From Pedobacter ghigonis (lineage in GTDB: Bacteria > Bacteroidota > Bacteroidia > Sphingobacteriales > Sphingobacteriaceae), in the NCBI RefSeq assembly GCF_903166585.1, contig NZ_CAESCM010000021.1, positions 1 to 64,000 on the forward strand: DNA of 64,000 nt, written 5' to 3'. Position 1 is the first letter of the stretch, and each line of letters opens with the position of its first letter. Both the position numbers and the translations under genes were made by a program. Positions 2,809 through 63,072 of this stretch are shown piece after piece. The notes below the pieces were generated by a model that did no database searches, was not told where the DNA came from, and saw only the letters and a list, made by a program, of their open reading frames with translations.

Positions 2809-2837
2809 TATAATTATACGTGGCCCTAAAATAAAAA

Positions 2838-2873: not shown

Positions 2874-2921
2874 AGCGCTAATAAATCAATCGACTGACTA
2901 TTCAACTTAAAAACCAAACAA

Positions 2922-6284: not shown

Positions 6285-6296
6285 ATCCGAATCATC

Positions 6297-7712: not shown

Positions 7713-7720
7713 AAACACAA

Positions 7721-10273: not shown

Positions 10274-10288
10274 TATTTTAAACAGATC

Positions 10289-11377: not shown

Positions 11378-11458
11378 TTCATGAAAAAATAAGTCATTAC
11401 AGACTTGAAAATTAACAACTGGGTAGAAGCAGTTGATGTTAATAGTAGTTAGATAATG

Positions 11459-11490
11459 ATGCAGGACGACGGATGTCTCCTGCATTTTTT
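11459..11490 (+). terminator. rho-independent terminator after the SusC/protease operon
   Basis: ATGCAGGA (11459-11466) pairs with TCCTGCAT (11478-11485); an inner GAC/GTC pair extends the stem, and TTTTTT ends it at 11490. It lies about 80 bases after the TlpA-like gene. It overlaps the first codons of the longest reading frame for the next gene (ATG at 11473), which argues that the true start of that gene is downstream, at 11530. Confidence 0.75.
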
Positions 11491-11529
11491 ATGATGATAA
11501 TTTTTAAACTTTTCAATCCATCAGAAAAA

Positions 11530-40561: not shown

Positions 40562-43500
40562 ATGGTTAAAATTTACACAAGCATTTGTTTTGCCTTGTTT
40601 TTATCTGTTTTTGGATCTCAAGCCTTACATGCCAATACGGTAGTGGTAAAGGGGGGTAATAGTCTGTATTTTGCTTTTCAGCAGGATACGACAAAAACTA
40701 AGAAGGAGCCAGCAACATTTTCTGTAAAAACAGATACAATAGGGCAAATGATTAAGGCGTTGCAGAAATTTAAGGCTGTACGCGATACGATTAACATCCG
40801 TTCGGCAACGCCGGTTCCAAATTTGTCATTACAACAGATTATTAAAGGAAATTTAGCAGGAGTTTACGTGCAGGAGCCAAATGGCGAGCCTGGAACCGAA
40901 CAAAGTATTATTATTCAAGGAGCTTCTGGTTTACTTTTCAGCAAAAAAGATATTTATGCATTGCAACCAGCTGTTTATTTAAATGGTGTACCGTTGGTGG
41001 CCGATAATCCTTTCGCTTTTGATGTTCAGAAATATGACTATAACAGGATTGGCCCTGCTACCAACTTATTGTCTCAAATCAGTATAGATAATATACAGTC
41101 TATTTCGGTGATCAAAGATCCATTTGAATTGGCTAAACTTGGGCCAAATGCCGCTAATGGTGCCATATATATTACTACTAAGAATGCCAGGTCTTCTGGT
41201 CTTCGCGATATCAGTGCAAACGCTTATTTTGGTTATGTAACCACACCTAAAGTAAATACGATTAACGGTGTTTACGAAAATAATTTTAGAAAACCATTTT
41301 ATCAAAAGTATGCAACCGTTGAAAATTATGCGGGTTATGCATCTTATTTAAGAGATTCGACCAATACCGCATACTACGGACCATCTAACTGGAACGATTT
41401 ATACTACAAAAATACGCCAACTTTTTCGGCTGATTTAGGTATTACAGGTGGTGGTGACCGCGCAAATTTCAGATTTTTCGGTTCAGGCACTAAAAACGCA
41501 GGTAATGCAGATGATACTAATATAAATAAGTATAATTTATTTTTTGGTATCAACATGGCCCCATTTCAATGGCTTACAGTTTCGAGTAGTGTGAATGCAG
41601 CGCGTTTAGACCGTACCAGAAACCGAAGTTTGAGAGATCGTTTTGCTGAAACCAGGTATATTCCAGATTTATCAAATCCTTTATCGCCAAACGCTTCTAT
41701 TTATGGAAATTTTTTAGAAGAAAATGCCAAGAATGTAGATAATAATCGCAATAGCATTTTAAACGGTAATTTAATAATCAGCGCTAAAGTCAATAAAATA
41801 ACCCTTACTTCGAGTTTAATTTTTGATTATAACGAAGGCGTGAGAGATTATTTTACTCCTTCTAGCTTAATGGATGGAGTGAGTTATGTATCCAATTATT
41901 TTGGTTATAGCCAGCGTTTGTTGCAAAGCAATACAGCTTCTTATAAGTATGAAATTAATAAGAAGCATACTGTCGATTTTGAAATTGGCCAAAGTTTTCA
42001 GGGCGATACCTATAAATACAATTATGCTCGTGCCTATAACGGACCAAATGATTATGTAAAGTTAAACCTGGTTGATGGCCGTGAAAAAATTAACGATGCT
42101 GATAACCCGGATTATCTAAATACACTTGCAAAAGGTGGTTTCTATGTTTTCCGGTATATAGACAAGGAGCGGAATAACCTGATGTCTTTCTATGGATCGG
42201 CTAAGTACAGCTATAAAAACCTGTTAAACGTAAGTGCCCTTGTAAGAAGAGATGGTTCATCTAACGGACAGCCGGATAGCAGATGGGTAACAACACCAGC
42301 CTTTAATGCCACCTTTAATTTGAAGGAGCAGTTTTTAAAGAATGATACTTTTTTTGATGCCCTGAACCTTAGTGCTGGTTGGGGAAGAAATTTAAGGATT
42401 TTCCTTGACGACAGATATGCGGCAGGCCCTCAGTACCGTTCGGAAAATGGTTGGTTTGAAGAGCCTACTATCCCAGGCTATGGAGGTAGATTAGGGATAA
42501 ACAGACCATATGAGAGCGGCTTTATTGGTTATGGAATTAGTCTTCCTTTTTCTGATCGGACCAATATCACACTTGATGCAGCTTTCTTGAATAACAGAAT
42601 TAATGCAGCAATCAGTGCTTATAACCGTAACGACAATAATAACATTATTGGTGTACCGGTACCTTTTGAAACAGGTTACAATGTTAACTATCAATCGGGA
42701 ATGGATATTAACAATAAAGGTTTAGAACTTATGTTGAATGGTGTAATCATCAATCAACCTAAAGGGTTAAGCTGGAATACAACCCTAAACATCAATTACA
42801 ACCGTAACGAACTTAAGGCATTACCAAATGGTTTAAAAGAAGTAATTGTTGGCGATAATAAGCTTACTGTTGGTAAACCGGTTGGAAGCTTTTGGTTGTA
42901 TACTAACAATGGTATTTACAATACCAATGCCGATGTACCTGCGGGAAGAACCTTTAATGGTATTCCAATGAAAGCCGGTGATCCTAACTGGGCAGACTAT
43001 AATGGCGACAACCGTATTGATAGTAAAGATAAAATTTTAACAGGTAACCGTTTACCGAAATTTGTAGGTGGTTGGAATAATACCTTGGCTTACAAAAACT
43101 TCGATCTTAATTTCAACTTCATCTTTGCATTGGGCCAAAAGGCAATTAATCAATATGAAGCTACCCGTTATGGTTTTATTAACCGCGAGGCAGGCAACGA
43201 TATTAATTCTGTTAAGGAAGTTTCTTCATGGCAGGTATTTGACAATGAAAAAACGTATCCAATTTATAATCCGTGGAGTGATGTTGATGCATATCGTGTT
43301 GATCAGGATCTGTTTTTAGAGGATGCCTCGTATGTAAAATTAAGATCAGTAACCCTTGGTTACGATTTCGGTAAAACTTCATTCTTCAAAAAAACGGGTA
43401 AAACAGTAAGAAGGGCATACTTATACGCAACCGCGATGAACTTGTTTACCATTACCAGGTTTACAGGGGCTGATCCTGAACTTGTAAACTATACCGGATA

Positions 43501-43564
43501 CTACGATGGAGCCAATTTAACCATCCCTAGAACCTTTGTATTGGGCTTTAAATTGGATTTATAA
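40562..43564 (+). CDS. SusC-like TonB-dependent receptor without the N-terminal carboxypeptidase-like domain
   Basis: 1000 residues. The signal peptide (about 1-25; ICFALFLSVFGSQALHA) leads into a linker of about 60 residues rich in Lys and Thr instead of the usual beta-sandwich domain. The plug follows (about 85-215: LQQIIKGNLAGVYVQEPNGEPG; ISVIKDPFELAKLGPNAANGAIYITTK), then the barrel, ending TIPRTFVLGFKLDL. SusC proteins almost always carry a carboxypeptidase-D-like domain here, and this one does not, nor an STN domain. It forms the first SusC/SusD pair of the double locus with 43583. Ligand unknown. Confidence 0.93.
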   Translation: MVKIYTSICFALFLSVFGSQALHANTVVVKGGNSLYFAFQQDTTKTKKEPATFSVKTDTIGQMIKALQKFKAVRDTINIRSATPVPNLSLQQIIKGNLAGVYVQEPNGEPGTEQSIIIQGASGLLFSKKDIYALQPAVYLNGVPLVADNPFAFDVQKYDYNRIGPATNLLSQISIDNIQSISVIKDPFELAKLGPNAANGAIYITTKNARSSGLRDISANAYFGYVTTPKVNTINGVYENNFRKPFYQKYATVENYAGYASYLRDSTNTAYYGPSNWNDLYYKNTPTFSADLGITGGGDRANFRFFGSGTKNAGNADDTNINKYNLFFGINMAPFQWLTVSSSVNAARLDRTRNRSLRDRFAETRYIPDLSNPLSPNASIYGNFLEENAKNVDNNRNSILNGNLIISAKVNKITLTSSLIFDYNEGVRDYFTPSSLMDGVSYVSNYFGYSQRLLQSNTASYKYEINKKHTVDFEIGQSFQGDTYKYNYARAYNGPNDYVKLNLVDGREKINDADNPDYLNTLAKGGFYVFRYIDKERNNLMSFYGSAKYSYKNLLNVSALVRRDGSSNGQPDSRWVTTPAFNATFNLKEQFLKNDTFFDALNLSAGWGRNLRIFLDDRYAAGPQYRSENGWFEEPTIPGYGGRLGINRPYESGFIGYGISLPFSDRTNITLDAAFLNNRINAAISAYNRNDNNNIIGVPVPFETGYNVNYQSGMDINNKGLELMLNGVIINQPKGLSWNTTLNINYNRNELKALPNGLKEVIVGDNKLTVGKPVGSFWLYTNNGIYNTNADVPAGRTFNGIPMKAGDPNWADYNGDNRIDSKDKILTGNRLPKFVGGWNNTLAYKNFDLNFNFIFALGQKAINQYEATRYGFINREAGNDINSVKEVSSWQVFDNEKTYPIYNPWSDVDAYRVDQDLFLEDASYVKLRSVTLGYDFGKTSFFKKTGKTVRRAYLYATAMNLFTITRFTGADPELVNYTGYYDGANLTIPRTFVLGFKLDL

Positions 43565-43582
43565 AATAATTATACAATTAAT

Positions 43583-45175
43583 ATGAATGATATAATCAAT
43601 AAAGAAAATAGGTTTTACAAGACTGCTGCTGCAATTTTGGTATTACTAATTGGCTTTGGGAATTTTTCTTGTAAAAAGATCGACGATGTACAATCGACAA
43701 GATTGTCTACTGAAGAAACCAACTGGAAAACCTTAGAAGATGCCAAAGCGAACTTGCTATCGGTATACGGGTTGCTCCGTTCGGCTACTGTAGCTGATAA
43801 CGGCCACTGGATCATGGGCGATTTAAGACAGGGCGATTTTACCATTACTAATCGTGCCGATTTAAAGGCTGTTGTGAATGGTCAACTTAATGCTTCTTAC
43901 CCGGTAATTAACAGGTTAACCAACTGGAGAAGATTTTATGCTGCCATAAATGCTGCAAGTCTTTTTATAGAGCGGGCAAAAGAGATTAAAAGTTTAGATC
44001 CCCGTTACACTCAGATAAATTTTGATGTAGATGTTGCACAAGCAAGAATGCTTAGAGCCTTTGCTTATTTTTATATGAGCAGAATTTGGGGCGATGTGCC
44101 TTTGCTTACTTCATCTCACGATGGTGAATTTATACAACTGCCCAGGACCTCGCAGCAAAAAGTACTGGCATTTGCTACTAACGAATTATTAGCTGCCGCT
44201 AAAGTAGTGCCTTTCAGGTATGGTGGTACCGACCCGATTATGCCGGGCTTATATTATGGTGCAAACTGGCCGTCATGGAATGGTATCGTTTTTACACGTT
44301 TATCGGCTTATATTATTTTAGCACACATTGCTGCATGGCAAGGTAACTATATTGATGCGGCTAATTATTCGAAATTTGTTTTGGATAATCAATCTACACA
44401 GTATTTTGTTGATGGGGCTAACCCGTTGGATTATATTGATATGAACGCCCTAACGGAAAATCAGAACAACTATAGTCCGTTTGCATACAAAAGAGCAAAC
44501 CTGATGGTAGGTTTCCCTTTTGAAGCAGGTAATGGTTTATCAACTGCCAATGGCCACATTGAGCAATTAACGCTGGCTTATCCTTTTATCCCGAAGTCGC
44601 AGCCGGAAATGTTTGTGTCTAAAGATACCATCATCAAAGCATTTCCATATCCTGTTGATTTAAGGTTCAGCAGAGATCCGGTAACAGGATTATTAAGAAC
44701 AAATTATTTTTATGGTTTTGAATCTGAGCGTCCAATTTTTAATAAAATAAAAGTAATCTATCCGTCCAGTACTTCGGGTAATGTAACCTTATTCAGTTCT
44801 TCAATGGTATTTAGCCGAATGGAAGAAATTACCTTGTTAAGGGCTGAGGCGCTTGCTGTGTTAGGACAGAGAAGTGATGCGCTTATTGCCCTAAACAGAG
44901 CTTGTGCTTTAAGAGGTTTCAGTTTCACATCTGATGTACAAGATTTAGTTGCCGCAATTTTTCAGGAACGCAGAAGAGAGTTAATGGGAGAGGGTTGGAG
45001 ATGGTACGACATTATAAGATACAATCGTATTAAAAATCCCCAAGGTGTTTTTACAACTAAAAATGGTAAATCGATGACTTTTAAGGAGTTTGAAGCTGCC
45101 GGTGGTATCTATTGGCCGGTATCGCAAGATGTAATTAATGCCAATTCATCAATTACCCAAAATCCATACTGGTAA
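43583..45175 (+). CDS. RagB/SusD-family surface lipoprotein (pair 1)
   Basis: 530 residues, 18 bases after its SusC. The signal peptide core (LVLLIGFGNFSCKK) has the lipobox Cys at about 30. SusD landmarks are the N-terminal NWKTLEDAKANLLSVYGLLR, FYAAINAASLFIERAKE, the AQARMLRAFAYFYMSRIWGDVPLL motif (here in pieces, about 155-178) and the C-terminal RRRELMGEGWRWYDIIRYNR. It ends SSITQNPYW, as expected for the family. Surface ligand binding together with the SusC at 40562. Confidence 0.95.
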   Translation: MNDIINKENRFYKTAAAILVLLIGFGNFSCKKIDDVQSTRLSTEETNWKTLEDAKANLLSVYGLLRSATVADNGHWIMGDLRQGDFTITNRADLKAVVNGQLNASYPVINRLTNWRRFYAAINAASLFIERAKEIKSLDPRYTQINFDVDVAQARMLRAFAYFYMSRIWGDVPLLTSSHDGEFIQLPRTSQQKVLAFATNELLAAAKVVPFRYGGTDPIMPGLYYGANWPSWNGIVFTRLSAYIILAHIAAWQGNYIDAANYSKFVLDNQSTQYFVDGANPLDYIDMNALTENQNNYSPFAYKRANLMVGFPFEAGNGLSTANGHIEQLTLAYPFIPKSQPEMFVSKDTIIKAFPYPVDLRFSRDPVTGLLRTNYFYGFESERPIFNKIKVIYPSSTSGNVTLFSSSMVFSRMEEITLLRAEALAVLGQRSDALIALNRACALRGFSFTSDVQDLVAAIFQERRRELMGEGWRWYDIIRYNRIKNPQGVFTTKNGKSMTFKEFEAAGGIYWPVSQDVINANSSITQNPYW

Positions 45176-45197
45176 TCATTAACCTAATCGATTTAGA

Positions 45198-45875
45198 ATG
45201 AAAAATTTATTATATAAAAAGAGCACGTTTTTTCTTTTGGGGCTAATAGGCTTATGCTTTACTGCCTGCAAAAAAGATGTTTCGCCTTACCATGATTATG
45301 TAAATACACAGCAAACCTTTAATGGTTCTGCGATTGATTATTTAAAGGCCCAGCCTAAAGGTACATTCGATTCCTTGCTACTAGTATTAGATCGTTATCC
45401 CTTCCTTAAAGACTCGTTAACGAATCAAAAAGTAACACTTTTTGCCCCGGTTAATAAAAATTTTGAGGCTGCGGAGAAGTATCTGAATTTAGTACGTAAA
45501 AACCAGGGCAAAGCACCAGTTTATTTGTCAAATGCAGACCCTGTTCAGTTGGCTTTTATGATGTGCAAATACATCATCAGAGGCAATAGAACAACTGATG
45601 CTTACATTAATAATGCAGATGGGGTGTTGCTTAAAAATATTGTAATCGACTATCAGATGCATATTAAATATGTAAAACTAAGCTCGGCAGGTTATGTTGG
45701 CGGCGGCCCCGCAACACTTAATTTTAGCGATACCTATGGGTCTATTTTTGCCAATACCTGGGTAACAACAACAACCAACGCGGTTAACATTAAAACCAAC
45801 AATGCAATTATCAATATACTTACACCGATACACAATTTTGGTTTTGACGAATTCACCTATAGATTGAACAATTAA
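45198..45875 (+). CDS. fasciclin (FAS1) domain lipoprotein, copy 1
   Basis: 225 residues. The lipobox is GLCFTACKK (Cys24). The body has a FAS1-like layout: FDSLLLVLDRYPFLKDSL, the conserved VTLFAPVNKNFEAAEKYL, LAFMMCKYIIRGNRT and the final NIKTNNAIINILTP. FAS1 domains mediate adhesion or carbohydrate contact at the cell surface. In this locus a similar gene follows the second SusD too (51652), so the family is part of the repeated module. Confidence 0.88.
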   Translation: MKNLLYKKSTFFLLGLIGLCFTACKKDVSPYHDYVNTQQTFNGSAIDYLKAQPKGTFDSLLLVLDRYPFLKDSLTNQKVTLFAPVNKNFEAAEKYLNLVRKNQGKAPVYLSNADPVQLAFMMCKYIIRGNRTTDAYINNADGVLLKNIVIDYQMHIKYVKLSSAGYVGGGPATLNFSDTYGSIFANTWVTTTTNAVNIKTNNAIINILTPIHNFGFDEFTYRLNN

Positions 45876-45878
45876 AAA

Positions 45879-46907
45879 GTGACGATGAAAAATAAAATAA
45901 ATCTATTGCGTATATCCTTAACCCTGTTGACGGGGAGCATAGCTTTATCGGCATGCAAAAAGAATTTACCTGATGAACGCTTATCCATAGCCAACGATTC
46001 TCAGTACACCCAATATTTATATCAACCCGTTTTAGGTAGAAATACTTTGTTTACCAATAATTTTCAATACGGGAACTCCAGCCGTCCGTTGGACTTTAAA
46101 ATTGTAAATATGCGTTCTTTTAACGGGGAGCCAGCACCAGAGTTAACCAATAATTATCCGGTAACAGTTTGGAAAACTGCTTACGATGGTACAGAGAAAT
46201 CGCTGGCAGAGATTGAAGCAAAACGTACAACAGAAAACCACCCTTTATTTGAAGTAAGACCACACTCTGGTGAGTTTATGATGTGGGCTGCAGCAAATTC
46301 AAACATGGTTAAGGCGCAGCCAGACTCTGGTTATGTTTTTGACGTAGAAATGTCGAATTCGGGTGGTAGAAAGTACTATCAAAACTTCCGTTTGCGTCCT
46401 TTGCGTGAGCGCCCTTACGAGCCATCAAATTTAGATCCTGTTACAGGTCAGGGTACATCAGTATCGGTTAATCCTACCAGTGTATTTATTACCGGCGAAC
46501 GTGGACAGTTGCTGAATACCAGAGATGATGTTCAGGTTTTGTTTAAAAGGGCAGGAAACGGCAATAGTATCACTTTCAAATTTGCAGATACCTTATCTAA
46601 TCCAATTGATCCGAATAAGTTTGCTGCTACCGATTGGGCTAATTTGGTACACGGCTTTAATATGGTTAAAGATGCTACCAAGGTAAAATACGAGGTTGCA
46701 TATCCAATACCTTGCAGTGCTTATCCTACCAAATATACCACATTATCGGGCGATCAGGCCAGGGTTGTTTTTAGGTTTAACAGGCAGGCATTTGGTAATA
46801 TACAGCAACAGTGTTTCCTGGCCTTCAACTTTAATATTTACCAAAAAGGAGATTGGGAAATCACTTTCTGGTTTAAGCGTGATAAACCAAAATTTGATAA
46901 TGATTAA
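45879..46907 (+). CDS. DUF5007-like surface lipoprotein
   Basis: 342 residues, 3 bases after the fasciclin gene. The lipobox is GSIALSACKK (Cys25 from the first Met). The rest is beta-rich with PVLGRNTLFTNNFQYGNSSRP and SGEFMMWAAANSN. A stretch PDSGYVFDVEMSNSGGRKYY and the end WEITFWFKRDKPKF give it the look of the DUF5007 family found in SusC/D loci; this match is from memory and should be checked. Its stop overlaps the first ATG of the next SusC gene (TAATG), so translation may be coupled. Probable ligand-binding accessory lipoprotein of pair 1. Confidence 0.75.
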   Translation: MTMKNKINLLRISLTLLTGSIALSACKKNLPDERLSIANDSQYTQYLYQPVLGRNTLFTNNFQYGNSSRPLDFKIVNMRSFNGEPAPELTNNYPVTVWKTAYDGTEKSLAEIEAKRTTENHPLFEVRPHSGEFMMWAAANSNMVKAQPDSGYVFDVEMSNSGGRKYYQNFRLRPLRERPYEPSNLDPVTGQGTSVSVNPTSVFITGERGQLLNTRDDVQVLFKRAGNGNSITFKFADTLSNPIDPNKFAATDWANLVHGFNMVKDATKVKYEVAYPIPCSAYPTKYTTLSGDQARVVFRFNRQAFGNIQQQCFLAFNFNIYQKGDWEITFWFKRDKPKFDND

Positions 46908-49900
46908 TGGAACAATATAAACTAAAACAAAACATATTTCCGATGAAGTATTTTTACACCATAGTTATTTTATTGATTTTTGGTTTCCAGAATTTAGCTA
47001 TTGCCCAGCAACGTATTGTTGTAACCGGGACAGTTATTGATGGTTCATCAAAATCAAAAGAAACCATACCCGGGGTTAGTGTTACCAGCGGGGGCAGTTC
47101 GTTAGGAATTACCGATAATAACGGTAAGTTTAGGGTAACTGTAGCTAACAACGCGTCTTTAACCTTTAGTTATGTAGGTTACGAATCGGTTACCGTTAAA
47201 GTAAACAACCGTACCAACATTTCGGTTACCATGGGGGTTGATAACAAAACCTTAAAAGAGGTTACAGTTACAGCTGGTTATCAAACCAAAACAAAAACAT
47301 TGATGACCGGTTCTGCAGTAACGATTTCCGGAAAAGATATTCAGGGACAACCAGCCAGTGATGTAATGTCGCTATTACAAGGTAAGGTGGCAGGTTTAAA
47401 TATCCAGAACAATACAGGTGCTCCAGGTTTCAGGGGTAGCTTAACCATACGTGGTATATCTAATATCAACGTTTCTGGCTCAGGAAGTTCATCTTTCTTA
47501 ACACCTACATCGCCATTATTTGTAATTGATGGTGTACCGGTTGATGACAATACCGACTATTCGTATGGTTTTCAGCAGGCAGGACCTGGTGTTTCGCCAG
47601 CTTCCCAAATTCCACCAGAGGATGTTGAAGATATTACAGTATTAAAAGATGCAGCCGCTACAGCACTTTATGGTTCGAGAGGAGCGTATGGTGTAATTTT
47701 AATTACCACAAAGCGCGGCAATTCTAAAGTTCCTGTAGTGCGTTACAATGGTTCTGCATTTATGTCAACCGTTCCACAATTGCGTTCGGTAATTGGAGGT
47801 AAAGGTGAGCGTTTGTTAAGAGTAGACCAAATTTTACGTTACGATACAGCTTACAATCACGCTATCGATTTAATAAACTCTACGCCGTTTTTAGCTGATA
47901 GTTTAAATGCGTATTACAATAATTCGACAGATTGGCAGTCTTATTTTTATCGCCCTACTTTTAACCAAAGCCACAATTTAAATATTTCTGGTGGTGATGT
48001 AAAGTTTAACTATAAAGTAGCCCTTGGTATTTATGATGAAAAAGGTATTCAACAAAATACAGGGTACTCCCGGTATAACCTGAACATGAATATGATTTAC
48101 GCGCCCAGCCGAAAGTTTAAACTCGAAGGGCAGTTAAATAACTCTATACAAAAACAGCAAACAGGAAGTGGTAATGGCCTCCAGAACGCGGGCATAGCCA
48201 GAGGAGGAAGTTCGTCTTCCTTACTACCAGCCCCGTCACTTTATTCTTCTGTTGATGCGGTATTGGGAGCACTAACTACCGACAATGATAATAAAGTATT
48301 AAACACAACTGCAACGCTAAATGGAGAGTACGAAATTGTGCCAAATTTAAAATTGGGTTCCTACTTAAGTTACACCGCAAAATCGAGTACTAAGGATAAC
48401 TTTTCTCCAGCGGCCTTAAATTCAAACCAGGCAGAGTATTATACTTACAACGATAGGGCAACCACTTTATACAATCGTAATCAACTTTCGTACGTATATT
48501 CGTTAAAAGAGGCAGGAGAAGATGCGCACAACTTTTCAGTTTTCGCATTCTCTGAGCTCAGGGCTTCATTCTTTAAATCAGATGCCATATTGAACGATCG
48601 CGTAGTAAACGATCAGTTAAGGGGGCCGCTAACCAATATGACTGATTACCTGACTTCAAAAGGCGGAACAATCGGTTATACGGATTTAAGAAGTATTGCA
48701 TTTGCAGGCGCTTTCTCTTATAACTATAAACAAAAATATGTAATCGACCTGAACTACCGCGTGGACGGACTTTCTACTAATGGCCCAAATGCCGGTTACA
48801 AGAAAAATCCGGCGATAGCGGTAAAATGGAATTTTGACAGGGAAGAGTTTTTAAGCGGTTTGAAATTTTTGGATTATGGTGATATTCGCTTAAGTTATGG
48901 TTCAAATATTACGCCTAACGGTAATATTTATCAGGCTTACGGTAAGTATGTTGGCGGTAACCGTTATAATAACAGCAATACGGTAGTGTCAGATTTAGAT
49001 TTCGTACCAAACTTAATTTTAGAACCAACAAAAGCCACTACTTATAATGCTGGTTTTGATGTTGGTATCCTTAACGGAAAATTTAGTTTATCAATGGATG
49101 CTTATTACAAGCAAACAGATAACAGTTTCAGGGAAAAGAAACTATCTACTGCTAATTCATTCGATAAAATTGGTTCAACAGAAATTAGTAATGTTAACTA
49201 TGGTTGGGAGTTTCAGGCAACAAGCCGCCCGCTAAATGCTACAAGTCCGTTTAAATTATCACTAAGTGCGAATTTATCTATCAACAGAGAAATCTTGGCT
49301 TCGTTGCCTGACGGACTTAGAGAGCAGATTTATTATGATACGGCTTTAGGACAGGATCTTTATTATCGTTTAGGTATCAATTCACTATCTAACTACCTGT
49401 ATAATACTAAAGGTGTTTATAGTACCAATACCCAGGTTCCGGTTGATCCGCTTACGGGTTTACCTTATCGTGTAGGTACTAACGGTAAATTGAATTATTT
49501 TAAAGCCGGAGATCCAATTTTTACCGATTTAGATGGTAACTATGTTTTAAATGAGTATGATAGGGTAATTGCCGGTAACTCGCAGCCACAAATTACAGGT
49601 GGTTTCACCTCATTGTTCCAATATAAAAACTGGAGTTTAGAGGTTAATACATCTTTCACGCTTCAGCGCGATATCTTAAATAACAGTTTAGCAGCTCAGT
49701 TTGCCCGCTTCAACACGCCGCTTGGTAATGACAAGGGGGATATAGGTGGTTTGGTTCCACTTTCTGAATATAGCTATTGGGCAGCGCCGGGCGATATGGC
49801 CATGTATGGTAACCCATTGGATTTCGTAAGGGCAAAGCTATTAGATCCATTTAGATCTAATCAAACCTTGTTCCAGGAAGATGGATCGTATTTTAAATTA

Positions 49901-50113: not shown

Positions 50114-50120
50114 ATCGGAT

Positions 50121-51647: not shown

Positions 51648-51651
51648 GAAG

Positions 51652-52371
51652 ATGAAAATACAAAACATAAATAAAGCATTCTTATTGGTATTGACCTGTG
51701 GGCTTTTCATGCTTGCAAGTTGCAAAAAGTATTATTTTGATACAGGCGTGCACGATCCAAAATATAGTGGAAGTACATTACAGTACATGAAATCCAAAAA
51801 ACCTTTTTTCGACAGTACTTTAACAGTGATTAATCTGGCTGGAATGAACGACGTATTGGACAAAGAAAATGTAACTTTTTTTGCTCCGCCAAGTGGTTCA
51901 GTTTTTAAAAGTATTAAAAGATTGAACGAGTATTTGAGAATTAATGGAAAGGATACAGTATCGCAACTCAGTCAGATAAAGCCTGAAGTATGGAGAAACA
52001 CCCTTTCGCAATATATATTCAAGGGTTCTAACCTGTTAAAAGATTATCCGCAAAGAGATACGCTTTCGTATATTGCTTTTCCAGGGCAGAATTATACTTC
52101 TTATGGAGGTCGTATTATGAATGTTGGCGCAATTTTTAGTGATGCAGCTGGGGTAAAATACGCAGGGTACCGTCAGTTGTTTCTGGCCTACATTCCTGAT
52201 TTATCTAATCCGCAGGTAGCGCTACAAAATAATCCTGTAGCTACATCAGATATTCAGACTACAAATGGTGTACTACATGTATTAACAAAAATTAAGCATA
52301 ACCTGGGTTTTAATACCAATAGATTCATTGATCAGGTAGTTGCAGCAGGTATTTTACCACCTACCCCATAG
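51652..52371 (+). CDS. fasciclin (FAS1) domain lipoprotein, copy 2
   Basis: 239 residues, 4 bases after SusD 2. The lipobox is CGLFMLASCKK (Cys25). FAS1-like parts are FFDSTLTVINLAGMNDVLDKENVTFFAPPSGSVF (here by its ends), the LSQYIFKGSNLLKDYP region, and TNGVLHVLTKIKHNLGF at the end. It corresponds in place and type to 45198 in the first module; the two share little length identity by eye but the same order of motifs. Confidence 0.87.
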   Translation: MKIQNINKAFLLVLTCGLFMLASCKKYYFDTGVHDPKYSGSTLQYMKSKKPFFDSTLTVINLAGMNDVLDKENVTFFAPPSGSVFKSIKRLNEYLRINGKDTVSQLSQIKPEVWRNTLSQYIFKGSNLLKDYPQRDTLSYIAFPGQNYTSYGGRIMNVGAIFSDAAGVKYAGYRQLFLAYIPDLSNPQVALQNNPVATSDIQTTNGVLHVLTKIKHNLGFNTNRFIDQVVAAGILPPTP

Positions 52372-52403
52372 CTAATTATTTATTCATATCAATTAATAGA
52401 TAT

Positions 52404-54107
52404 ATGTTAACAAACATAAAATATAGAACAGGCTTTTTGGTAGCAATGGTAATTTGCCTTGTTAGCCTGATGGTTTCTTGCGAAAAAAGCAAGGGGCTGG
52501 CCGAGGATCCTTATGCCGGAGGGAAACAGGTATTGGGTATAAATTTTATTTCCAAAACTACTGATCCTGATATTGTAACTGCAGGTGCAACCCTGAACCT
52601 TCAGGTAAACGGCTTAATGAAATATAAAGATAATTTTAAGCTTTATGTTAATGAGATCGAAGCTGAAGTGTTAAATTATACAGATAGCACCATCCAATTC
52701 AAAGTTCCTTTAACAGCAAGCACCGGTAGTGTTTGGATTACCTCGCAAGGTCAAAGTTTTTTTGGGCCAATTGTTAAGGTTGGTGGGAAAGTAGCAGTAG
52801 ATCCTACTTTTAAAATTGTAAATGGTGCCGGATCAGTTTCTGCATTTGGTATCAATACAGTTTACGATGCAGAAAAACTCCCTACTGGTAGATTTTGGCT
52901 AGGTGGCGGATTTACCAGTTTTGAGCAAAAAGGTACCTTAGTAACACCAAACGGAGGTATTGTTCAGCTAGATGCCGATGGAGCTTACATTACCAACGAT
53001 ATTAACTTTGGAAAGGGCGTTGCAGGGGGGCTTGGAATTATAACTTCAATTAATAGAATATCAAGCGGCTCGCAAAACGGTAAATTTATCATTTCGGGTA
53101 GTTTTTCTTCTTATAACTCTTACCGAGCTAATCGTCAAACGCTTAGCAATATCGCCAGATTAAACGCTAATGGTACTTTAGATACCATCAAAACAGCTGA
53201 TAAAGATGCTCAGGGCAATTCATTGGTGCCTATTGTAAACCCTAAACCTGGCGAAACCTGGAAAAACGGCGATACTGTAGCAGCTTTTAATGCCGGTGTG
53301 GATGGTTTTGTAAGAAAAACATTTATTTATGGTGAGCAGATTTATATCGTTGGTAATTTTCAAAATTTCAGAAGGATGTATTATCCAAACTCTAGTTACG
53401 ATGAGAAAGTATACGACATAACCAAAATGAAACAACTGGTGAGGGTTAATGCAGATGGATCAATGGATTCTACTTTCCATTATAACAAAAATACCCGTCA
53501 AAGTGCTGCTGCAGGTAATGGAGGGATTATCGACGCCATGATGCAAACAGATGGAAAGCTCATTTTGGTAGGATCGTTTACTTCGTTTAACGGTGTAACT
53601 GCCAACCATATTGTGCGTTTAAATTTAGATGGGTCGGTAGATCAGACTTTTAGTGCTGGTGCTGGATCAGATGGCGATATTTATTCGATCAGATATAATA
53701 CTACAACCGATAAAATTGTAGTTAGCGGCAACTTTAATACCTTTAACGGAAAAGCATCTTCCGGCCTGGCCTTACTAAATTCAAATGGGTCTGTAGTCAG
53801 TACTTTTAATAGCTCGGTTATTAGTGGAGGTATTGCAACTTTCGCTGCACAGCTTAACAATGGTAAAATAATAGTTGCCGGTTCATTCAATAAATATGCC
53901 GATTATTTACGTCAGGGTTTTATGATATTGGAAGCTAACGGGCAGTTAGCTGTGGGGTACAACAATACAGGAGGTTTTCAGGGCAGGATTTACGATATGA
54001 TTGAAACACCGGTAAGCAATGGTTCGCAGGTTGTTTTAGTTGGTGATATTTACAGGTTTAACTCTATACTGCCGCATAACGTACTTAGGCTAGTCATTTC
54101 TAATTAA
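52404..54107 (+). CDS. DUF5008-like lipoprotein with IPT/TIG and delta-60-type repeats
   Basis: 567 residues. The lipobox is VSLMVSCEKS (Cys26). An IPT/TIG-like domain at about 45-130 (DIVTAGATLNLQVNGLMKY; VPLTASTGSVWITS) is followed by a beta-propeller-like repeat region (about 150-567). Repeat units look like DGKLILVGSFTSFNGVTANHIVRLNLDGSVD and KIVVSGNFNTFNGKASSGLALLNSNGS (both only in part). The layout matches DUF5008 as I remember it. It is likely a surface-exposed binding lipoprotein and holds the place that DUF5007 has in module 1. Confidence 0.75.
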   Translation: MLTNIKYRTGFLVAMVICLVSLMVSCEKSKGLAEDPYAGGKQVLGINFISKTTDPDIVTAGATLNLQVNGLMKYKDNFKLYVNEIEAEVLNYTDSTIQFKVPLTASTGSVWITSQGQSFFGPIVKVGGKVAVDPTFKIVNGAGSVSAFGINTVYDAEKLPTGRFWLGGGFTSFEQKGTLVTPNGGIVQLDADGAYITNDINFGKGVAGGLGIITSINRISSGSQNGKFIISGSFSSYNSYRANRQTLSNIARLNANGTLDTIKTADKDAQGNSLVPIVNPKPGETWKNGDTVAAFNAGVDGFVRKTFIYGEQIYIVGNFQNFRRMYYPNSSYDEKVYDITKMKQLVRVNADGSMDSTFHYNKNTRQSAAAGNGGIIDAMMQTDGKLILVGSFTSFNGVTANHIVRLNLDGSVDQTFSAGAGSDGDIYSIRYNTTTDKIVVSGNFNTFNGKASSGLALLNSNGSVVSTFNSSVISGGIATFAAQLNNGKIIVAGSFNKYADYLRQGFMILEANGQLAVGYNNTGGFQGRIYDMIETPVSNGSQVVLVGDIYRFNSILPHNVLRLVISN

Positions 54108-54130
54108 CTGTACACTTTAATTTTATAGAT

Positions 54131-55879
54131 ATGAAAAAAAATATAAGATCAGTTTTTAATATTAAAACGATAAGTGCAGCATTCCTTTTAGGGTTTATTT
54201 TACTCCTCTCGGCCTGCAATAAAAATTTTGATAATGTTTTGCCTAAATCGTTCAGAAATGATACGCTGGGTTTAGGTAGTAATTCAAAAAAAGTATTATA
54301 CATTATATTGGATGGCGTGAAAGGTTCGGTGGTAAGTAGTTTAGCGCCTGCCAACATAACGCAAATTACCAATAATGCCATATTCTCTTATGATGGAGTG
54401 GCCGATTATCAACGTAATTCGCTTACCAATGCCGCAGCATGGACCACTATGCTTACTGGTGTTGATTATACCAAACATAATGTAAGTACGGAGGCTTTTA
54501 CAGGGTTAAATTTACAAACCACGCCAACATTATTTACCGGTATAAAATCAAACCTGGGTAATGTGCGGACAGTTTCTTTAGCTTCGACGGCAGCATTTAA
54601 CGATAACCTGGCCGTTGATGCTACGGTTAAACAAACACTGGCAGACGATGCAGCAGTTAAAACTTCGGTTATTGCTGAGTTAGGGGCAAACAATCCTTCA
54701 TTATTGGTGGCACAATTCCATAGTGCAGAAGTAGCAGGTTTGGCAAATGGCTATACTGCATCAACAACAGCATATACTACTGCCATTAATACACTCGATG
54801 GTTACGTGGGGGAGATTTTGACTGCTTTAAGGGCTAGAAAAACCTATGCACAGGAAAACTGGTTAGTAGTTGTATCCTCAAATAAGGGCGGAGCTGCTAC
54901 TTCTGGTGGTGCACCAGGTTCAAATATCTATGCAGACGATTCGCGTAATACTTTTGTAGCTTTTTACAATCCTAAATTTAAACCGAATGCCATCAATAAA
55001 CCTGATGTAAGTAACCTGCCATATTCTGGCATCGGGGCTAAATTTAATGCAACCAATGGTGCGGTACAAAGCGATGCTAATTTTTTAAATTTAGGTACAA
55101 ATATCGAAGCTACCATTCGTTTTAACATCCGTTGGGATGGAAGTGCTGGTAATTCAGGTTACTGCGCAATTCTTCAAAAAAGAGGACTTACCAGCGGAAT
55201 CACCGGAGGTGTACCGGGATGGGCCTTTATCAAAGATGATGGTGGTATTATTAGTTTAAATACAAGTTTCACTGGTTCAGGTAATATCCAGGCAAAAGGG
55301 CCAACATCTCAAAAACTGGATGATGGTAAGTGGCATGCTATTGCGGTAAGATTTTATAATAGTGGTGCAGACCGTTATGCTAGTATGTTTGTTGATGGTA
55401 TACCAGCTCAACAACCTGATTTAAAAATCAATGGAAACATAAATAGCATAGCACCTTTGCAGTTTGGGAAATACAGCAGTGTTGATTGTTTTATTACTGA
55501 ATTTGCGGTTTACAATATAGCCATTCCAAAGGCAGATATTATTGCAGCAAGTAAAAAAACGCCATTAACACCGATTTCTGATCCGTATTATAATAATTTA
55601 ATCGCTTATTATAAAACCAGCGAAGGTGTTGGAAATGTGTTGAATGATGCCTTAGGTAAATCACCCGCAATGAATTTGGTAGGTACGCCTAATTGGACTA
55701 ATTATGCCGATATCTCTCCAAATTTATCTCCCGCAATATCTGAAGCAGCATTTAAAGCAGTGCCAAATGGTGTGGATATACCTGTGCTAATCTACAATTG
55801 GTTAAATATAGCTGCACCTGCTAAATGGGCATTAATGGGGAAATTTTATGCCCCGGTTGTTTCTTTTCCAACCAACTAA
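54131..55879 (+). CDS. alkaline-phosphatase-fold plus LamG lipoprotein, copy 1
   Basis: 582 residues. The lipobox is LLLSACNK (Cys29). The N-terminal domain (about 50-290) looks like a type I phosphodiesterase/alkaline phosphatase fold: VLYIILDGVKG with metal-ligand Asp61, and AAAWTTMLTGVDYTKHNV. However, the expected S-D-H-G metal motif reads SSNKGG (Asn251, Lys252), so both metal ligands are changed. The second half (about 305-475) is a LamG/concanavalin-like lectin domain (DGKWHAIAVRFYNSG), followed by a tail of the DUF4983 type. It is probably a binding protein rather than an active enzyme. It is paralogous to 57835 on the other side of the M60 peptidase. Confidence 0.78.
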   Translation: MKKNIRSVFNIKTISAAFLLGFILLLSACNKNFDNVLPKSFRNDTLGLGSNSKKVLYIILDGVKGSVVSSLAPANITQITNNAIFSYDGVADYQRNSLTNAAAWTTMLTGVDYTKHNVSTEAFTGLNLQTTPTLFTGIKSNLGNVRTVSLASTAAFNDNLAVDATVKQTLADDAAVKTSVIAELGANNPSLLVAQFHSAEVAGLANGYTASTTAYTTAINTLDGYVGEILTALRARKTYAQENWLVVVSSNKGGAATSGGAPGSNIYADDSRNTFVAFYNPKFKPNAINKPDVSNLPYSGIGAKFNATNGAVQSDANFLNLGTNIEATIRFNIRWDGSAGNSGYCAILQKRGLTSGITGGVPGWAFIKDDGGIISLNTSFTGSGNIQAKGPTSQKLDDGKWHAIAVRFYNSGADRYASMFVDGIPAQQPDLKINGNINSIAPLQFGKYSSVDCFITEFAVYNIAIPKADIIAASKKTPLTPISDPYYNNLIAYYKTSEGVGNVLNDALGKSPAMNLVGTPNWTNYADISPNLSPAISEAAFKAVPNGVDIPVLIYNWLNIAAPAKWALMGKFYAPVVSFPTN

Positions 55880-55884
55880 TTTAA

Positions 55885-57822
55885 ATGTATATGAAAATTA
55901 ATCATTTCACTATATCATGCGCTGCAGTTTTATTCTTAAGTCTGACAGCTTGTAAAAAATATGGTTACGATATTCCAGATGGCTATCCGGATAATTCTGA
56001 AAATGTAGCTGGAGGTAGTATCGATACCAATATGAAGATCATCGATAAATCGATGTATGCGAAAGCCAGGGTATTTCCAGGTCTGGTAGATCAGTCTGAA
56101 CCTCGGGTTCAAAATGCCAAGTTTACTTTAGATTTAAATTTCACCGATCAAACGGCCGATAATTTGCGTATTTCGGTAGCACCAGAACCACAGTATAGCA
56201 CTGGTTATTATGCTGCACCAGGCGAACTGGTTAAGATAGAGGTTCCGGCTGGCATTGAAGGTTTAACGGTTCAGATAGGTGGGCATACCGATAACCTTGC
56301 AGGTAAATCGCCGTTATTGCGCGATCCGGTTGTGTATATGCGCCAGCAATTATATGCAGGTGCTAACTATGTACGGAATTTGTATGGTGGTACCATTTAC
56401 ATCCGTGCAGACAGGGCTTATCCAAACCCTGTAGAATTCACCATTACCAATGCCTGTGTTTCTCCCGATTTTATTCTGGGGCAAACTGTTGATGCAGACT
56501 GGGTAAATAAAGTAAAGGCATCACAGGTGCCCTGGTTAGAATTGCGTAGCAAACGCGTAATTTTCCTGGTACCGCGAGATAAAATTGTGGCCACATTTAC
56601 CTCATCAGAGCCCTATACTAACCCAACAGTTGCTTTGGGTAAATGGAACGATGTATTCGATTTGGATTACAACGCCTGGATGGGGTTATCTGATAATGCA
56701 CCAGATCCAAAAGACAGAAGTCCGCAAGGCCCATGGAGAGGAGTATTGGATATTCAACTATCAGCGGGGTACGGTCACTCAGGTTTTCCTTTTGTTGGCT
56801 TAAACGATAGCGAATGGTTTAAAGGTTTTACAAGTCTGAAAAATATTACTACCAGCGACGGGCAATGGGGGTCTTATCACGAGTTTGGCCACAACTGTCA
56901 GCAAGGTAAGGTTTGGAGCTGGAGTACGCTGGGCGAAACTACCAACAACTTGTTTAGTTTTAAAGTAGCCAACAGGATAGGAGCAAATTATAACATCCTG
57001 CACCCTGCTGTTTCAAGTGGTTTCCCTCAGGCTATTACTTATGCTTCGGGTACAGGAACTAAAAATTTTGATACTGATGGCGCTATGAACGATCCGTTTA
57101 AACGGATGACGCCTTTTGTACAGATTTTTGAAAAATATGGTTATGGCGCAATGACATATCTTTATACAGAAGCCCGTCATGCAGCCCGCCTGAATACCAG
57201 TGATATTACCATGCACAATTTTGTGTACGAAAAGCTATCTGACTATACCCAAACTGATTTGGCCCCGTTTTTCGATGCCTGGGGTATTAATTATAGTGAT
57301 GCAGTTGCTGTAAAAATGTCTAATAAATACCCTTTGTTAACTAAACAGATCTGGACTTATAATCCTTTAAATAAAACAGGTGGTACGGGCACAATAATTT
57401 ATACAACCAGTGTGGTATCAGCAAGTTCTCCTGCACAGGAGGGATCGACTGCTGCTTTGGTAGATAATAATTTAACTACATACTACCATTCGCAGTACTC
57501 AAGTCCAACACCTGCTCAGTCATATCCTTTTACCTTCATTTTTAACGCAGGTGCTAATATTCCAATTAAGGGCATGTATTTTAATGGTAGAGCAGGCACC
57601 AATAGGGCAGGAGATGCTAAAGACATAGAAATTTTTAGCAGTAGAGATAACATTAACTACACCAGCATTGGTACCACTACTTTGCCTAATACAGCCAATA
57701 GGTTCGAATATATTTTTCCAAATGGAAATGTAAATGCCAAATTCTTCAAAGTAATCGTTAAAAACGGATACACCACTAATCCTTATGTGGTATTTGCCGA
57801 AATGAATTTAATAAAGCCATAA
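55885..57822 (+). CDS. M60-family (enhancin-like) metallopeptidase lipoprotein with F5/8 type C domain
   Basis: 645 residues; ATG 55891 is an alternative start. The lipobox is LSLTACKK (Cys23). An N-terminal M60-associated region (about 40-180) precedes the peptidase (about 190-480), with the zinc motif YHEFGHNCQ: His332, Glu333 and His336. Glu351 in LGETTNNLF is a likely third ligand. The family is known to cut next to O-glycans in mucin-type glycoproteins. A discoidin (F5/8 type C) domain at about 500-645 (FTFIFNAGANIPIKGMYFNG) adds sugar binding. This is the only clear catalytic enzyme of the locus, so it probably sets the substrate. Confidence 0.88.
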   Translation: MYMKINHFTISCAAVLFLSLTACKKYGYDIPDGYPDNSENVAGGSIDTNMKIIDKSMYAKARVFPGLVDQSEPRVQNAKFTLDLNFTDQTADNLRISVAPEPQYSTGYYAAPGELVKIEVPAGIEGLTVQIGGHTDNLAGKSPLLRDPVVYMRQQLYAGANYVRNLYGGTIYIRADRAYPNPVEFTITNACVSPDFILGQTVDADWVNKVKASQVPWLELRSKRVIFLVPRDKIVATFTSSEPYTNPTVALGKWNDVFDLDYNAWMGLSDNAPDPKDRSPQGPWRGVLDIQLSAGYGHSGFPFVGLNDSEWFKGFTSLKNITTSDGQWGSYHEFGHNCQQGKVWSWSTLGETTNNLFSFKVANRIGANYNILHPAVSSGFPQAITYASGTGTKNFDTDGAMNDPFKRMTPFVQIFEKYGYGAMTYLYTEARHAARLNTSDITMHNFVYEKLSDYTQTDLAPFFDAWGINYSDAVAVKMSNKYPLLTKQIWTYNPLNKTGGTGTIIYTTSVVSASSPAQEGSTAALVDNNLTTYYHSQYSSPTPAQSYPFTFIFNAGANIPIKGMYFNGRAGTNRAGDAKDIEIFSSRDNINYTSIGTTTLPNTANRFEYIFPNGNVNAKFFKVIVKNGYTTNPYVVFAEMNLIKP

Positions 57823-57834
57823 ATTAAAGAGATC

Positions 57835-59529
57835 ATGAAATTAGATAACAAAATTTTTAAAGTCCTTTCATTTGGCCTTTTAAGCATCTTAATTTATTCT
57901 GGTTGTAAAAAATATGATAATCCACCGCCAGTATTCGAAGAGTTAAAAAGATCGGTACTTGCGCAACGCAAAGTGATGATTATCAGTATTGACGGTTTAA
58001 CTGGAGCTGAGCTGCAAGCCATAGCACCAACTAGTATTACAGAGTTACAGAAAAACTCAAAATATAGCTATAACACTTTGAAGACGGCTTCTGATGCTGC
58101 AGGGTGGGCATCTATGCTAACAGGTACAGGTTTTGCAAAACATCAAATCAGCGGTGATAATTTCGAGCGGGTAAAAGACCCCAATACTGATGATCATGCG
58201 CCGATTGTATCTTATCGTAACGTTTTTGATTATGTAACGCAGTATAAAGCTGTAAAAACAGCCTTAGTTACACCTTGGGCTAATTTGCGCAATTATATGC
58301 GTAATGCTGATTTTTCACCTATTGTAACAACGGATCTGGCGGTTAAAGACAGCACGATAAGCATCCTGAATAACCAAGCAGGTTTAGGTACCATAGCGGT
58401 TAATTTTAGAGAAGTAGAGGCTGCAGGTGCTAACGGTGGATATTTGGCAAGCAATCCAAATTATAAAAATGCAATAATAAAGGCTGATGAGTATGTTGGC
58501 AATATTATGACGGCTTTAAAAGCCAGAAAAAATTATGCAAATGAAGATTGGCTTGTAATAATCACCAGCAATCATGGTGGCAGTAGTGCCAATCCAACCA
58601 ATGGTTTTACATTATTGTATAATCCTGCCTTTAAACCTTACGAATTAAAGAAAACAGGATTTAATCCGGTTTTATTCAATAACACTACTGGTAGAGCTAC
58701 TTTAAGTGCTGATAATAATCTTTACGATGCTGGTGAAACAAAAAATTTTACTGTGCAGATGGATGTGAAATTTAATGCTGTACCAAGTGGCTACTCAAGC
58801 TTTTTTAGTAAGAGTACTAATCTAAGTGGTTCCTCAATTACAGGTTGGCAATGGGCGCTTTATCCTGGTGGCAAGTGGGTGATTACTACTGGAGGAACTT
58901 TAAATGGAGGCGGAGGAAAGCTTGATGTAACATCAACTGATTCTCCTGGAACAGATTGGCATACCTTAACCATGACGGTCGAATACATCAATTCAACAAC
59001 AAGAAACCTAATCATGTATATAGATGGTAAACGTCAAAATGCAACTGCATTAAATATTAGTGGAAGAAAAAGCTTAAGCACAACAGAAGGATTTAGAGTA
59101 GGCCATAGAACTGGTGATAATGATACACCAACATCCTTTTATGGTGCTAATCTAGCTTATTTTAATACTGCATTGAGCGAAGCTATCATAAACAGTAATT
59201 TAGGATTAAAAGATATTACCAAGCATACTAATTATGCAAACATTACTGGTTTTTGGCCAATGGACGAAGGTGCAGAGGGAACTTTTTTTAATAAGGCTCC
59301 AGGTGGTTATAACATGGCCCTTTCAGGTTTGTATAACTGGACAAATTTGGGTGCTTTGTATCCTCCGGGTACGACTGCTGAACCTGTAACATCAACATTA
59401 TCTATTCCATCAACAGTGAGTGATGTTTCTGCATTAACCTTATATTGGATGAAAATAAATATTCTTTCTGATTTTGGTTTTGATGGTAAACCCTACCTTA
59501 ACAAATTTGAAATCGAATTCTTAAAATAG
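57835..59529 (+). CDS. alkaline-phosphatase-fold plus LamG lipoprotein, copy 2 (DUF4983-like)
   Basis: 564 residues. The lipobox is LIYSGCKK (Cys23). The N-terminal domain has VMIISIDGLTGAEL (Asp53) and AAGWASMLTGTGFAKHQI. Its metal motif is TSNHGG (Asn246, His247): the usual Asp is Asn but the His is kept, so it is less decayed than in copy 1. The LamG-like domain (about 290-460) contains DWHTLTMTVEYINSTTRNLI, and the C-terminal tail ending YWMKINILSDFGFDGKPY (by its beginning) is of the DUF4983 kind. Similar in layout to 54131; last gene of the locus, followed by a terminator. Confidence 0.78.
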   Translation: MKLDNKIFKVLSFGLLSILIYSGCKKYDNPPPVFEELKRSVLAQRKVMIISIDGLTGAELQAIAPTSITELQKNSKYSYNTLKTASDAAGWASMLTGTGFAKHQISGDNFERVKDPNTDDHAPIVSYRNVFDYVTQYKAVKTALVTPWANLRNYMRNADFSPIVTTDLAVKDSTISILNNQAGLGTIAVNFREVEAAGANGGYLASNPNYKNAIIKADEYVGNIMTALKARKNYANEDWLVIITSNHGGSSANPTNGFTLLYNPAFKPYELKKTGFNPVLFNNTTGRATLSADNNLYDAGETKNFTVQMDVKFNAVPSGYSSFFSKSTNLSGSSITGWQWALYPGGKWVITTGGTLNGGGGKLDVTSTDSPGTDWHTLTMTVEYINSTTRNLIMYIDGKRQNATALNISGRKSLSTTEGFRVGHRTGDNDTPTSFYGANLAYFNTALSEAIINSNLGLKDITKHTNYANITGFWPMDEGAEGTFFNKAPGGYNMALSGLYNWTNLGALYPPGTTAEPVTSTLSIPSTVSDVSALTLYWMKINILSDFGFDGKPYLNKFEIEFLK

Positions 59530-59547: not shown

Positions 59548-59582
59548 AAACCCTTGCCTCCGGAGGAGGCAAAGGGTTTTTT
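59548..59582 (+). terminator. rho-independent terminator of the double SusC/SusD locus
   Basis: AAACCCTTGCCTCC pairs with GGAGGCAAAGGGTTT (59548-59580) over a short loop, followed by T. It lies 19 bases after the last gene of the locus and separates it from lacZ. Confidence 0.9.
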
Positions 59583-63028: not shown

Positions 63029-63072
63029 TGTTCTTTTTTAATGAAATGATGAACGCGCTATCCAAAGAAAAT

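Follow-up and report, generated by a model that had tools for sequence, protein, structure and literature searches.

SusCD systems are a main route of glycan feeding in Bacteroidota. Here we describe a SusCD locus of Pedobacter ghigonis that lies at positions 40,562 to 59,529 of a 64,000-nucleotide stretch of DNA (contig NZ_CAESCM010000021.1 of assembly GCF_903166585.1, positions 1 to 64,000; hereafter the window) and encodes two different SusCD pairs, fasciclin-type (FAS), DUF5007 and DUF5008 lipoproteins, an M60 metallopeptidase and two lipoproteins with a phosphatase-like fold (AP1 and AP2). The levan utilisome, a dimer of a single SusCD type, is reported to contain SusC, SusD and two lipoproteins in two copies each (PMC7618045). 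Like the levan and dextran utilisomes of Bacteroides thetaiotaomicron, each module of the Pedobacter locus has four outer-membrane parts; unlike the levan utilisome, the locus has two different SusCD types, with FAS, DUF5007 and DUF5008 proteins in place of the surface glycan-binding protein (SGBP) and the glycoside hydrolase (GH). The mucin polysaccharide-utilisation locus (PUL) BT4240-50 shares with it a surface M60 with a carbohydrate-binding CBM32 domain, SusCD and an adjoining GH2 beta-galactosidase, and is described as having one SusCD pair, a DUF1735 SGBP, a GH109 and a kinase of its own (PMC11992087), whereas the Pedobacter locus has two SusCD pairs, the FAS and DUF5007/DUF5008 proteins, pseudo-phosphatases, a GH27 and a second M60; neither a DUF1735-type SGBP nor a GH109 was called in the operon or in the three genes after it. 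By annotation, BT0262-90 resembles the locus in its SusD, hypothetical protein, DUF5007 protein, second SusD and, later, alkaline phosphatase family protein, but has DUF5124 where the locus has DUF5008, and the annotated part that was compared contains no M60 (PMC10434189).

At the level of single proteins, the M60 mucinases AM0627, BT4244, ZmpB, ZmpC and IMPa share with the M60s of this locus type the HExxH...E motif and the Trp and Asn that contact N-acetylgalactosamine (GalNAc; PMC9325726, PMC9996832). In contrast to these mucinases, the six full-length core M60s are without the GalNAc-contacting Arg; instead, an HSGxP stretch can be aligned to 23px, a homologue of AcfD. In its fold, the N-terminal part of AP1 resembles nucleotide pyrophosphatases/phosphodiesterases (7mw8), but AP1 is without their metal ligands and has LamG-like and DUF4983 parts added. 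In literature searches with subscription papers outside their reach, DUF5007/DUF5008 appeared only in a table row of PMC10434189, the combination of fasciclin, SusD and SusC yielded fasciclin in a reference list only, M60 with metallopeptidase and Pedobacter gave no match, and among the matches listed for two-SusC and for SusD/fasciclin/utilisome queries no title concerned this unit, the two-SusC matches being mostly noise. The locus represents a strictly ordered block that is conserved across relatives and seems undescribed.

The operon consists of eleven plus-strand open reading frames (ORFs) with intergenic gaps of -11 to 32 bp, among them two pairs of adjacent SusC and SusD genes, and a Pfam scan of the eleven ORFs bore out the gene content given in a preliminary description made from the DNA letters. 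That description had also seen two parallel modules and proposed a search for the same order in other genomes. When this search was run, the modules did not behave as independent elements: they belong to one ordered unit of nine genes, SusC1-SusD1-FAS-DUF5007-SusC2-SusD2-FAS-DUF5008-AP/LamG, which was found in 4/4 loci of the host genome, 16/17 loci of other genomes in a family sample and 74/80 named loci. In the 5.9-Mb host genome (G000), DUF5008 occurs four times (contigs C1, C2, C4 and C21, the last bearing the window), each time with a full-length DUF5007 gene about 6 kb upstream and with the complete core. SusC1 of the window is 44-62% identical to its counterparts in the three paralogous loci, SusC2 is 44-66% identical to its own, and all SusC1-SusC2 pairs stay below 38% identity; therefore whole loci, not modules, have been duplicated or acquired.

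In the family sample of 81 genomes, a full-length DUF5007 gene lies 5.8-6.6 kb upstream of 20/20 DUF5008 matches and beside DUF5008 in 21/21 cases when a match found with a home-made profile is included. The 16 ordered loci outside the host genome include G032, although its last core gene is cut by the contig end; the exception is G007, with a split SusD and without a call for the second FAS gene. The named loci were taken as the best 80 out of 233 relatives and are therefore weighted towards close kin; they overlap the family set in at least three cases (L066, L067 and L126 are G053, G016a and G038). Close copies of the locus were found in Pedobacter soli DSM 18609 and P. nyackensis DSM 19625, among others. 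SusC1-SusD1-FASa-DUF5007 is ordered in 80/80 of them. Of the six without the intact order, L079, L083 and L116 stop at a contig end, L110 has no AP call, and in L114 and L122, both of Niabella, an M60-like protein precedes a short AP protein. Several core genes of L104, L116, L134 and L135 are split into multiple ORFs, neighbouring pieces of which were counted once.

DUF5007 of the window is 92% identical to its counterpart in Pedobacter sp. ISL-64, and the gene order is retained at DUF5007 identities to the window copy of 43-48% in Niabella, Chitinophaga and Paraprevotella and down to 37% in unnamed family loci, from which we conclude that the linkage of the two modules is old. Across 74 loci the SusC1 and SusC2 distances are correlated (r = 0.956; as high in 0/999 permutations), which is as would be expected from co-inheritance; taken alone, it is no demonstration of physical contact. 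Since DUF5007 and DUF5008 are both over the cut-off in 2/345 genomes of a phylum sample (the host and one family member), the unit is seldom found beyond this neighbourhood. Short DUF5007 matches in the family sample, as read off the lists, never adjoin a DUF5008 match (0/10).

Single-module relatives do exist, and the proposition that a single-module ancestor is absent was rejected. On the minus strand of contig C18 of the host genome (C18:76001-96000, L025, 8092-15663) lie genes for SusC, SusD, a FAS-like protein below the cut-off, a DUF5007-like protein (29.8 bits) and an ApbE flavin transferase; this locus, whose neighbour gene differs, may represent the ancestral state with one transporter.

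The preliminary description had the locus built round its M60 peptidase, a claim that did not hold, as the M60 is an optional part. Among 119 genomes of the genus (116 DUF5008 and 150 M60 positions, M60 counts being minima), an M60 starts 3.86-4.12 kb downstream of DUF5008 in at least 58/116 loci and none is listed in place in the remaining 58, while 92/150 M60 matches among those listed lie outside this position. The 21 loci of the family sample carry M60 and AP2 in six cases and PA14/PKD-type proteins in 13, two being unlabelled (G007, and G032 at a contig end); PA14/BT_3987-like and/or PKD plus F5/8C proteins thus occur in 13/15 of the family loci without M60. The two cargo classes also divide the DUF5007 tree (98 rows, six of them without a cargo label), in which one branch with SH-aLRT 100 separates 71 M60 loci from 21 PA14 loci; the tree was built by a quick method with midpoint rooting after three duplicate loci were dropped, and L114 and L122, which have no HExxH, were labelled M60. 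Either the cargo was switched once or both classes are equally old, to judge from this tree. The difference extends to the first FAS protein, whose ORF measures 529-567 aa in eight named PA14 loci versus 225-403 aa in 68 M60 loci; in the C2 locus, the only PA14-type locus scanned with Pfam, it bears an F5/8C tail. Behind the PA14-type core on C2 of the host genome lies a gene with GtaA hairpin, DUF5127 and DUF4964 domains (C2:459092-461566; L024, 7092-9566), a relative of which adjoins the core in G031, G039 and G061.

The M60 domain of the window protein scores 132.4 bits against a cut-off of 25.8 bits. The zinc site that the preliminary description implied by singling out E333 is present, with H332, E333, H336 and E351, E333 being catalytic. 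In characterised mucinases, Trp, Asn and Arg contact GalNAc and Glu binds zinc (PMC9325726); 6/6 full-length core M60s have the zinc Glu together with Trp328 and Asn355, and in the sequence alignment W328 and N355 correspond to Trp321 and Asn347 of the AM0627 GalNAc subsite. HExxH is present in 48/68 M60 ORFs of the named loci; the end of the locus truncates 17 of the other 20 ORFs ahead of a complete motif, one more (L134, from a locus many of whose genes are split) stops early, and two are without the motif. The F5/8C C-terminus matches CBM32-type chains, including the B. thetaiotaomicron CBM32 7blg and 4aax, the GalNAc-binding CBM32 of CpGH89 (PMC11992087). With its zinc site, lipobox-like Cys and CBM32-like C-terminus, the protein is a plausible component of a surface system that would bind and cut a glycoprotein.

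Another M60 locus of the host genome (C20:18001-38000, L010, 2883-15464) is of a more classical, host-glycan-like composition, with SusCD, a GH20 hexosaminidase and two GH29 fucosidases; in its M60 an Arg lies close to the GalNAc position.

The proteins on either side of the M60, AP1 and AP2, had been described as LamG lipoproteins. The LamG domain is below the cut-off in AP1 and uncalled in AP2, and both have a Phosphodiest match of the alkaline phosphatase superfamily instead (AP1, residues 97-257, 17.3 bits and below the cut-off; AP2, 36.7 bits and over it); the two are 28% identical. An AlphaFold2 (AF2) model of AP1 (mean predicted local distance difference test score, pLDDT, 85.6) matched the Xac nucleotide pyrophosphatase/phosphodiesterase 7mw8 in Foldseek (E 5.3e-10, 233 columns, root mean square deviation (rmsd) 3.6), with TM-scores of 0.29 over the whole query and 0.43 over the target; other matches include LamG/pentraxin-type chains. 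A sequence search of the PDB with AP2 gave chance-level matches only. In an alignment of 65 AP proteins (58/79 named-locus copies, those with a lipobox found and a length of 540-660 aa, and seven of the host genome), what we take to be the first metal-binding Asp of the superfamily is D in 64, whereas the Asp position of the DHG motif is D in none, its His position is H in four, and the His of DxxGH is found in none. AP1 and AP2 are best read as pseudo-enzymes for binding or scaffolding. That they are simple LamG lectins was rejected in view of the phosphodiesterase-type domain found with Pfam and Foldseek, and that they are active phosphatases for organic phosphorus was rejected in view of the lost metal ligands.

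The AF2 model of DUF5007 (pLDDT 91.8, predicted TM-score 0.81) contains, besides the signal helix and some short helices, beta structure only. An Ig-like sandwich is predicted for residues 34-176, and its best match in a second look was the SusE-like BT4661 (4ak1; Z 9.0, rmsd 2.3, 93 aligned residues); as an alpha-galactosidase (Z 8.2) and cadherins (Z 8.1 and below) score close, the SusE-likeness is a hint only. Foldseek returned mostly Ig-type matches with query TM-scores of about 0.2, and the fold search hardly covered the C-terminal half after residue 177. The first FAS-like protein scores 16.5 bits against a Pfam cut-off of 22 bits; its counterparts on C1 and C2 are over the cut-off (24.5 and 30 bits), and in the C4 counterpart Pfam matched nothing. 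NCBIfam gave no name to any FAS, DUF5007, AP or PA14/PKD protein submitted. The nine operon products other than SusC each have, as read by eye, a lipobox-like Cys followed by KK, NK or EK, and a crude rule found a lipobox in 76/80 DUF5007, 62/79 AP, 67/68 M60, 68/81 FASa and 76/80 FASb ORFs of the named loci; a separate simple pattern missed or misplaced several, and the surface side is predicted from these calls.

That the locus is without any glycoside hydrolase, as the preliminary description had it, is correct for the operon itself and incorrect for its neighbourhood, where a GH2 gene begins 238 bp downstream and is followed by a GH27 gene and a second M60 gene, all on the same strand as the operon (Table 1). 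All 47 chains of solved structures among the matches listed for the GH2 protein are beta-galactosidases. No lipobox was seen in the three proteins, which are therefore probably periplasmic. The terminator-like hairpin behind AP2 suggests that GH2 and the genes after it are perhaps on a separate transcript; terminator-like sites are scarcer in the region than in shuffled sequences (11 versus 15.9) and the hairpin is hence weak, and a promoter scan was uninformative (67 sites versus 58.8 in shuffles).

Recurrence downstream of the core was surveyed for GH27 and the second M60. Among the best 30 of 62 GH27 matches in the genus, 18 have a DUF5008 at most 25 kb upstream, 13 of those at 10.5-10.7 kb, and 17 of the 18, as read off the lists, are behind an M60-type locus, G105 being the exception. 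A second M60 is found at 12.4-12.6 kb or 19.6-20.7 kb in at least 16/116 loci, always behind a first M60; among the matches listed, two genus loci have an M60 on the upstream side of the core. GH27 and the second M60 are thus a cassette that joins the M60-type core often, not always.

Table 1. Features of the Pedobacter ghigonis locus and of the DNA downstream (positions in the window unless prefixed with the contig).
Feature	Position	Strand	Evidence
SusC1, module 1 TonB-dependent receptor	40562..43564	+	Pfam Plug 1.1e-7
SusD1 lipoprotein	43583..45175	+	SusD_RagB 3.3e-20
FAS-like lipoprotein a	45198..45875	+	Fasciclin 0.0098, below cut-off
DUF5007 lipoprotein	45879..46907	+	PF16398 8e-86; predicted all-beta, N-terminal Ig-like sandwich
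SusC2, module 2 TonB-dependent receptor, CarboxypepD_reg-like N-terminal domain	46907..50113	+	Pfam
SusD2 lipoprotein	50103..51647	+	SusD_RagB 4.1e-19
FAS lipoprotein b	51652..52371	+	Fasciclin 5.3e-6, over cut-off
DUF5008 and DUF5122 beta-propeller lipoprotein	52404..54107	+	PF16400 1.2e-14, PF17164 3.3e-35
AP1, degenerate alkaline-phosphatase-fold, LamG-like and DUF4983 lipoprotein	54131..55879	+	Pfam, all three below cut-off; AF2 model
M60 metallopeptidase with F5/8C (CBM32-like) C-terminus, lipoprotein	55885..57822	+	PF13402 2.9e-38; F5_F8_type_C 2.1e-10
AP2, second degenerate AP-fold and DUF4983 lipoprotein	57835..59529	+	Phosphodiest 4.7e-9, over cut-off; DUF4983 below cut-off
Terminator-like hairpin and T run, 3' of AP2	59554..59572	+	8 pairs, 5 G-C
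GH2 beta-galactosidase (LacZ type)	59768..62932	+	Pfam 3.8e-86; no lipobox seen
GH27 alpha-galactosidase	63046..64000 in window; ends C21:64275	+	no lipobox seen
Second M60 (M60b), past window end	C21:64314-65837	+	no lipobox seen

About 2 kb past the second M60, on the minus strand, lies a gene for an IucA/IucC siderophore synthetase (C21:68039-69850). Positions 1021-12774 of the window hold a second SusCD locus, with an extracytoplasmic function (ECF) sigma factor, a FecR anti-sigma factor, an STN-bearing SusC, a SusD, a met-zincin (DUF4953/5117/5118), a thioredoxin-like protein and an amidohydrolase; it is possibly a peptide-uptake system.

We consider it reasonably probable that the locus encodes an outer-membrane system of the polysaccharide-utilisation type for an O-glycosylated protein, the presence of the M60 arguing for such a substrate; its surface location, substrate, division of labour and assembly are what we infer. 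In the fixed core, each of the two SusCD transporters, which differ from one another, would have a FAS lipoprotein and a DUF5007 or DUF5008 lipoprotein at its side, and a dead phosphatase-fold/LamG lipoprotein would be added; the exchangeable cargo would here consist of the second pseudo-phosphatase and the surface M60, a glycopeptidase with a CBM32-like domain. A glycoprotein would be captured by the surface lipoproteins, its backbone would be cleaved beside an O-glycan by the M60 at the surface, by analogy with BT4240-50, the resulting peptides or glycopeptides would be imported by the two SusCD pairs, and trimming would be finished by GH2, GH27 and the second M60 in the periplasm. Compared with the levan utilisome, each module resembles a unit of four parts. 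A more specific proposal, rather unlikely in its entirety, is a heteromeric C1D1.C2D2 double utilisome in which DUF5007/FAS and DUF5008/FAS would be paired docking parts and the pseudo-phosphatases a scaffold, on which M60 or PA14/PKD/F5-8C proteins would be mounted, with the M60, which is without the GalNAc Arg, specific for a non-mucin O-glycoprotein.

Several observations weigh against a system for O-glycosylated protein. Because the 58/116 genus loci mentioned above have no M60 within 6 kb of DUF5008 among the matches listed, the function of the core cannot depend on peptidolysis. At the position of Arg362 of AM0627, the GalNAc-contacting Arg common to the five characterised mucinases, the sequence alignment shows N370 in the window M60 and K, a gap, M, S and S in the five remaining full-length core M60s, so the substrate need not be mucin; as some Sphingobacterium copies have an Arg near this position, its absence appears to be a trend and no rule. 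The two Niabella proteins without HExxH (L114, 18343-20352; L122, 18379-20400) are full-length M60 folds of about 670 aa and likely pseudo-peptidases. Of the best 30 GH27 relatives, 12 are not downstream of a core, one being upstream (G167) and 11 elsewhere, two of which adjoin an M60. Finally, no sensor or regulator was found in the operon or among the scanned upstream genes of the window; at the paralogous copies, an AraC gene lies near C1 and a hybrid two-component-type gene near C4.

The alternative with the most in its favour, which we regard as possible if doubtful, is an importer of plant glycan resembling arabinogalactan-protein, in which the M60 would cut the backbone of a plant O-glycoprotein and loci of the PA14 class would be for the same polymer but dispense with peptidolysis. 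A plant glycoprotein comes into question because of the missing Arg, the GH2 and GH27 neighbours, which fit galactose-rich glycans, and because an arabinogalactan PUL of B. thetaiotaomicron is apparently similar. There, the annotation of BT0269-75 (SusD, hypothetical protein, DUF5007, SusD, DUF5124) resembles the core order and that of BT0277-79 reads carbohydrate-binding, 'alkaline phosphatase family' and hypothetical (PMC10434189), arabinogalactan is listed as the primary substrate of BT0262-90 (PMC3243724), and bt0268 is given as a susC gene driven by an arabinogalactan promoter (PMC6874557; PMC5061871). Several hosts of the named loci are, moreover, plant-linked by name. However, the likeness to BT0268-BT0278 is one of annotation, the table row in PMC10434189 stems from an iron-response study, and a table of PMC13088901 gives the substrate of B. 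thetaiotaomicron PUL5 as 'Unknown'. Neither GH43 nor GH16 was found among the proteins scanned, and the GalNAc site keeps its Trp and Asn.

General RagAB-like scavenging of peptides or glycopeptides, with incidental sugars and modules that import different peptides, is in our judgement quite unlikely: the operon interior does have a peptidase and no GH, and peptide import by SusCD is known for RagAB and BT2263-64 (PMC11992087), but the CBM32-like domain on the M60, the F5/8C, PA14 and LamG-like domains in the cargo and the recurrence of GH27 behind M60-type cores all point to glycans. Neutral co-inheritance of two unrelated SusCD loci in a recently spread block, for which it can be said that co-location alone does not show joint function and that loci are duplicated within genomes (four in the host), is very improbable given the old linkage seen in distant relatives.

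The nine-gene unit, with two different transporters in fixed order across several genera and two classes of cargo, permits a direct test of joint function and assembly. It also places the orphan families DUF5007, DUF5008 and DUF4983 and the FAS lipoproteins in one system. The M60 clade with its altered glycan pocket may be useful for finding peptidases of non-mucin O-glycoproteins.

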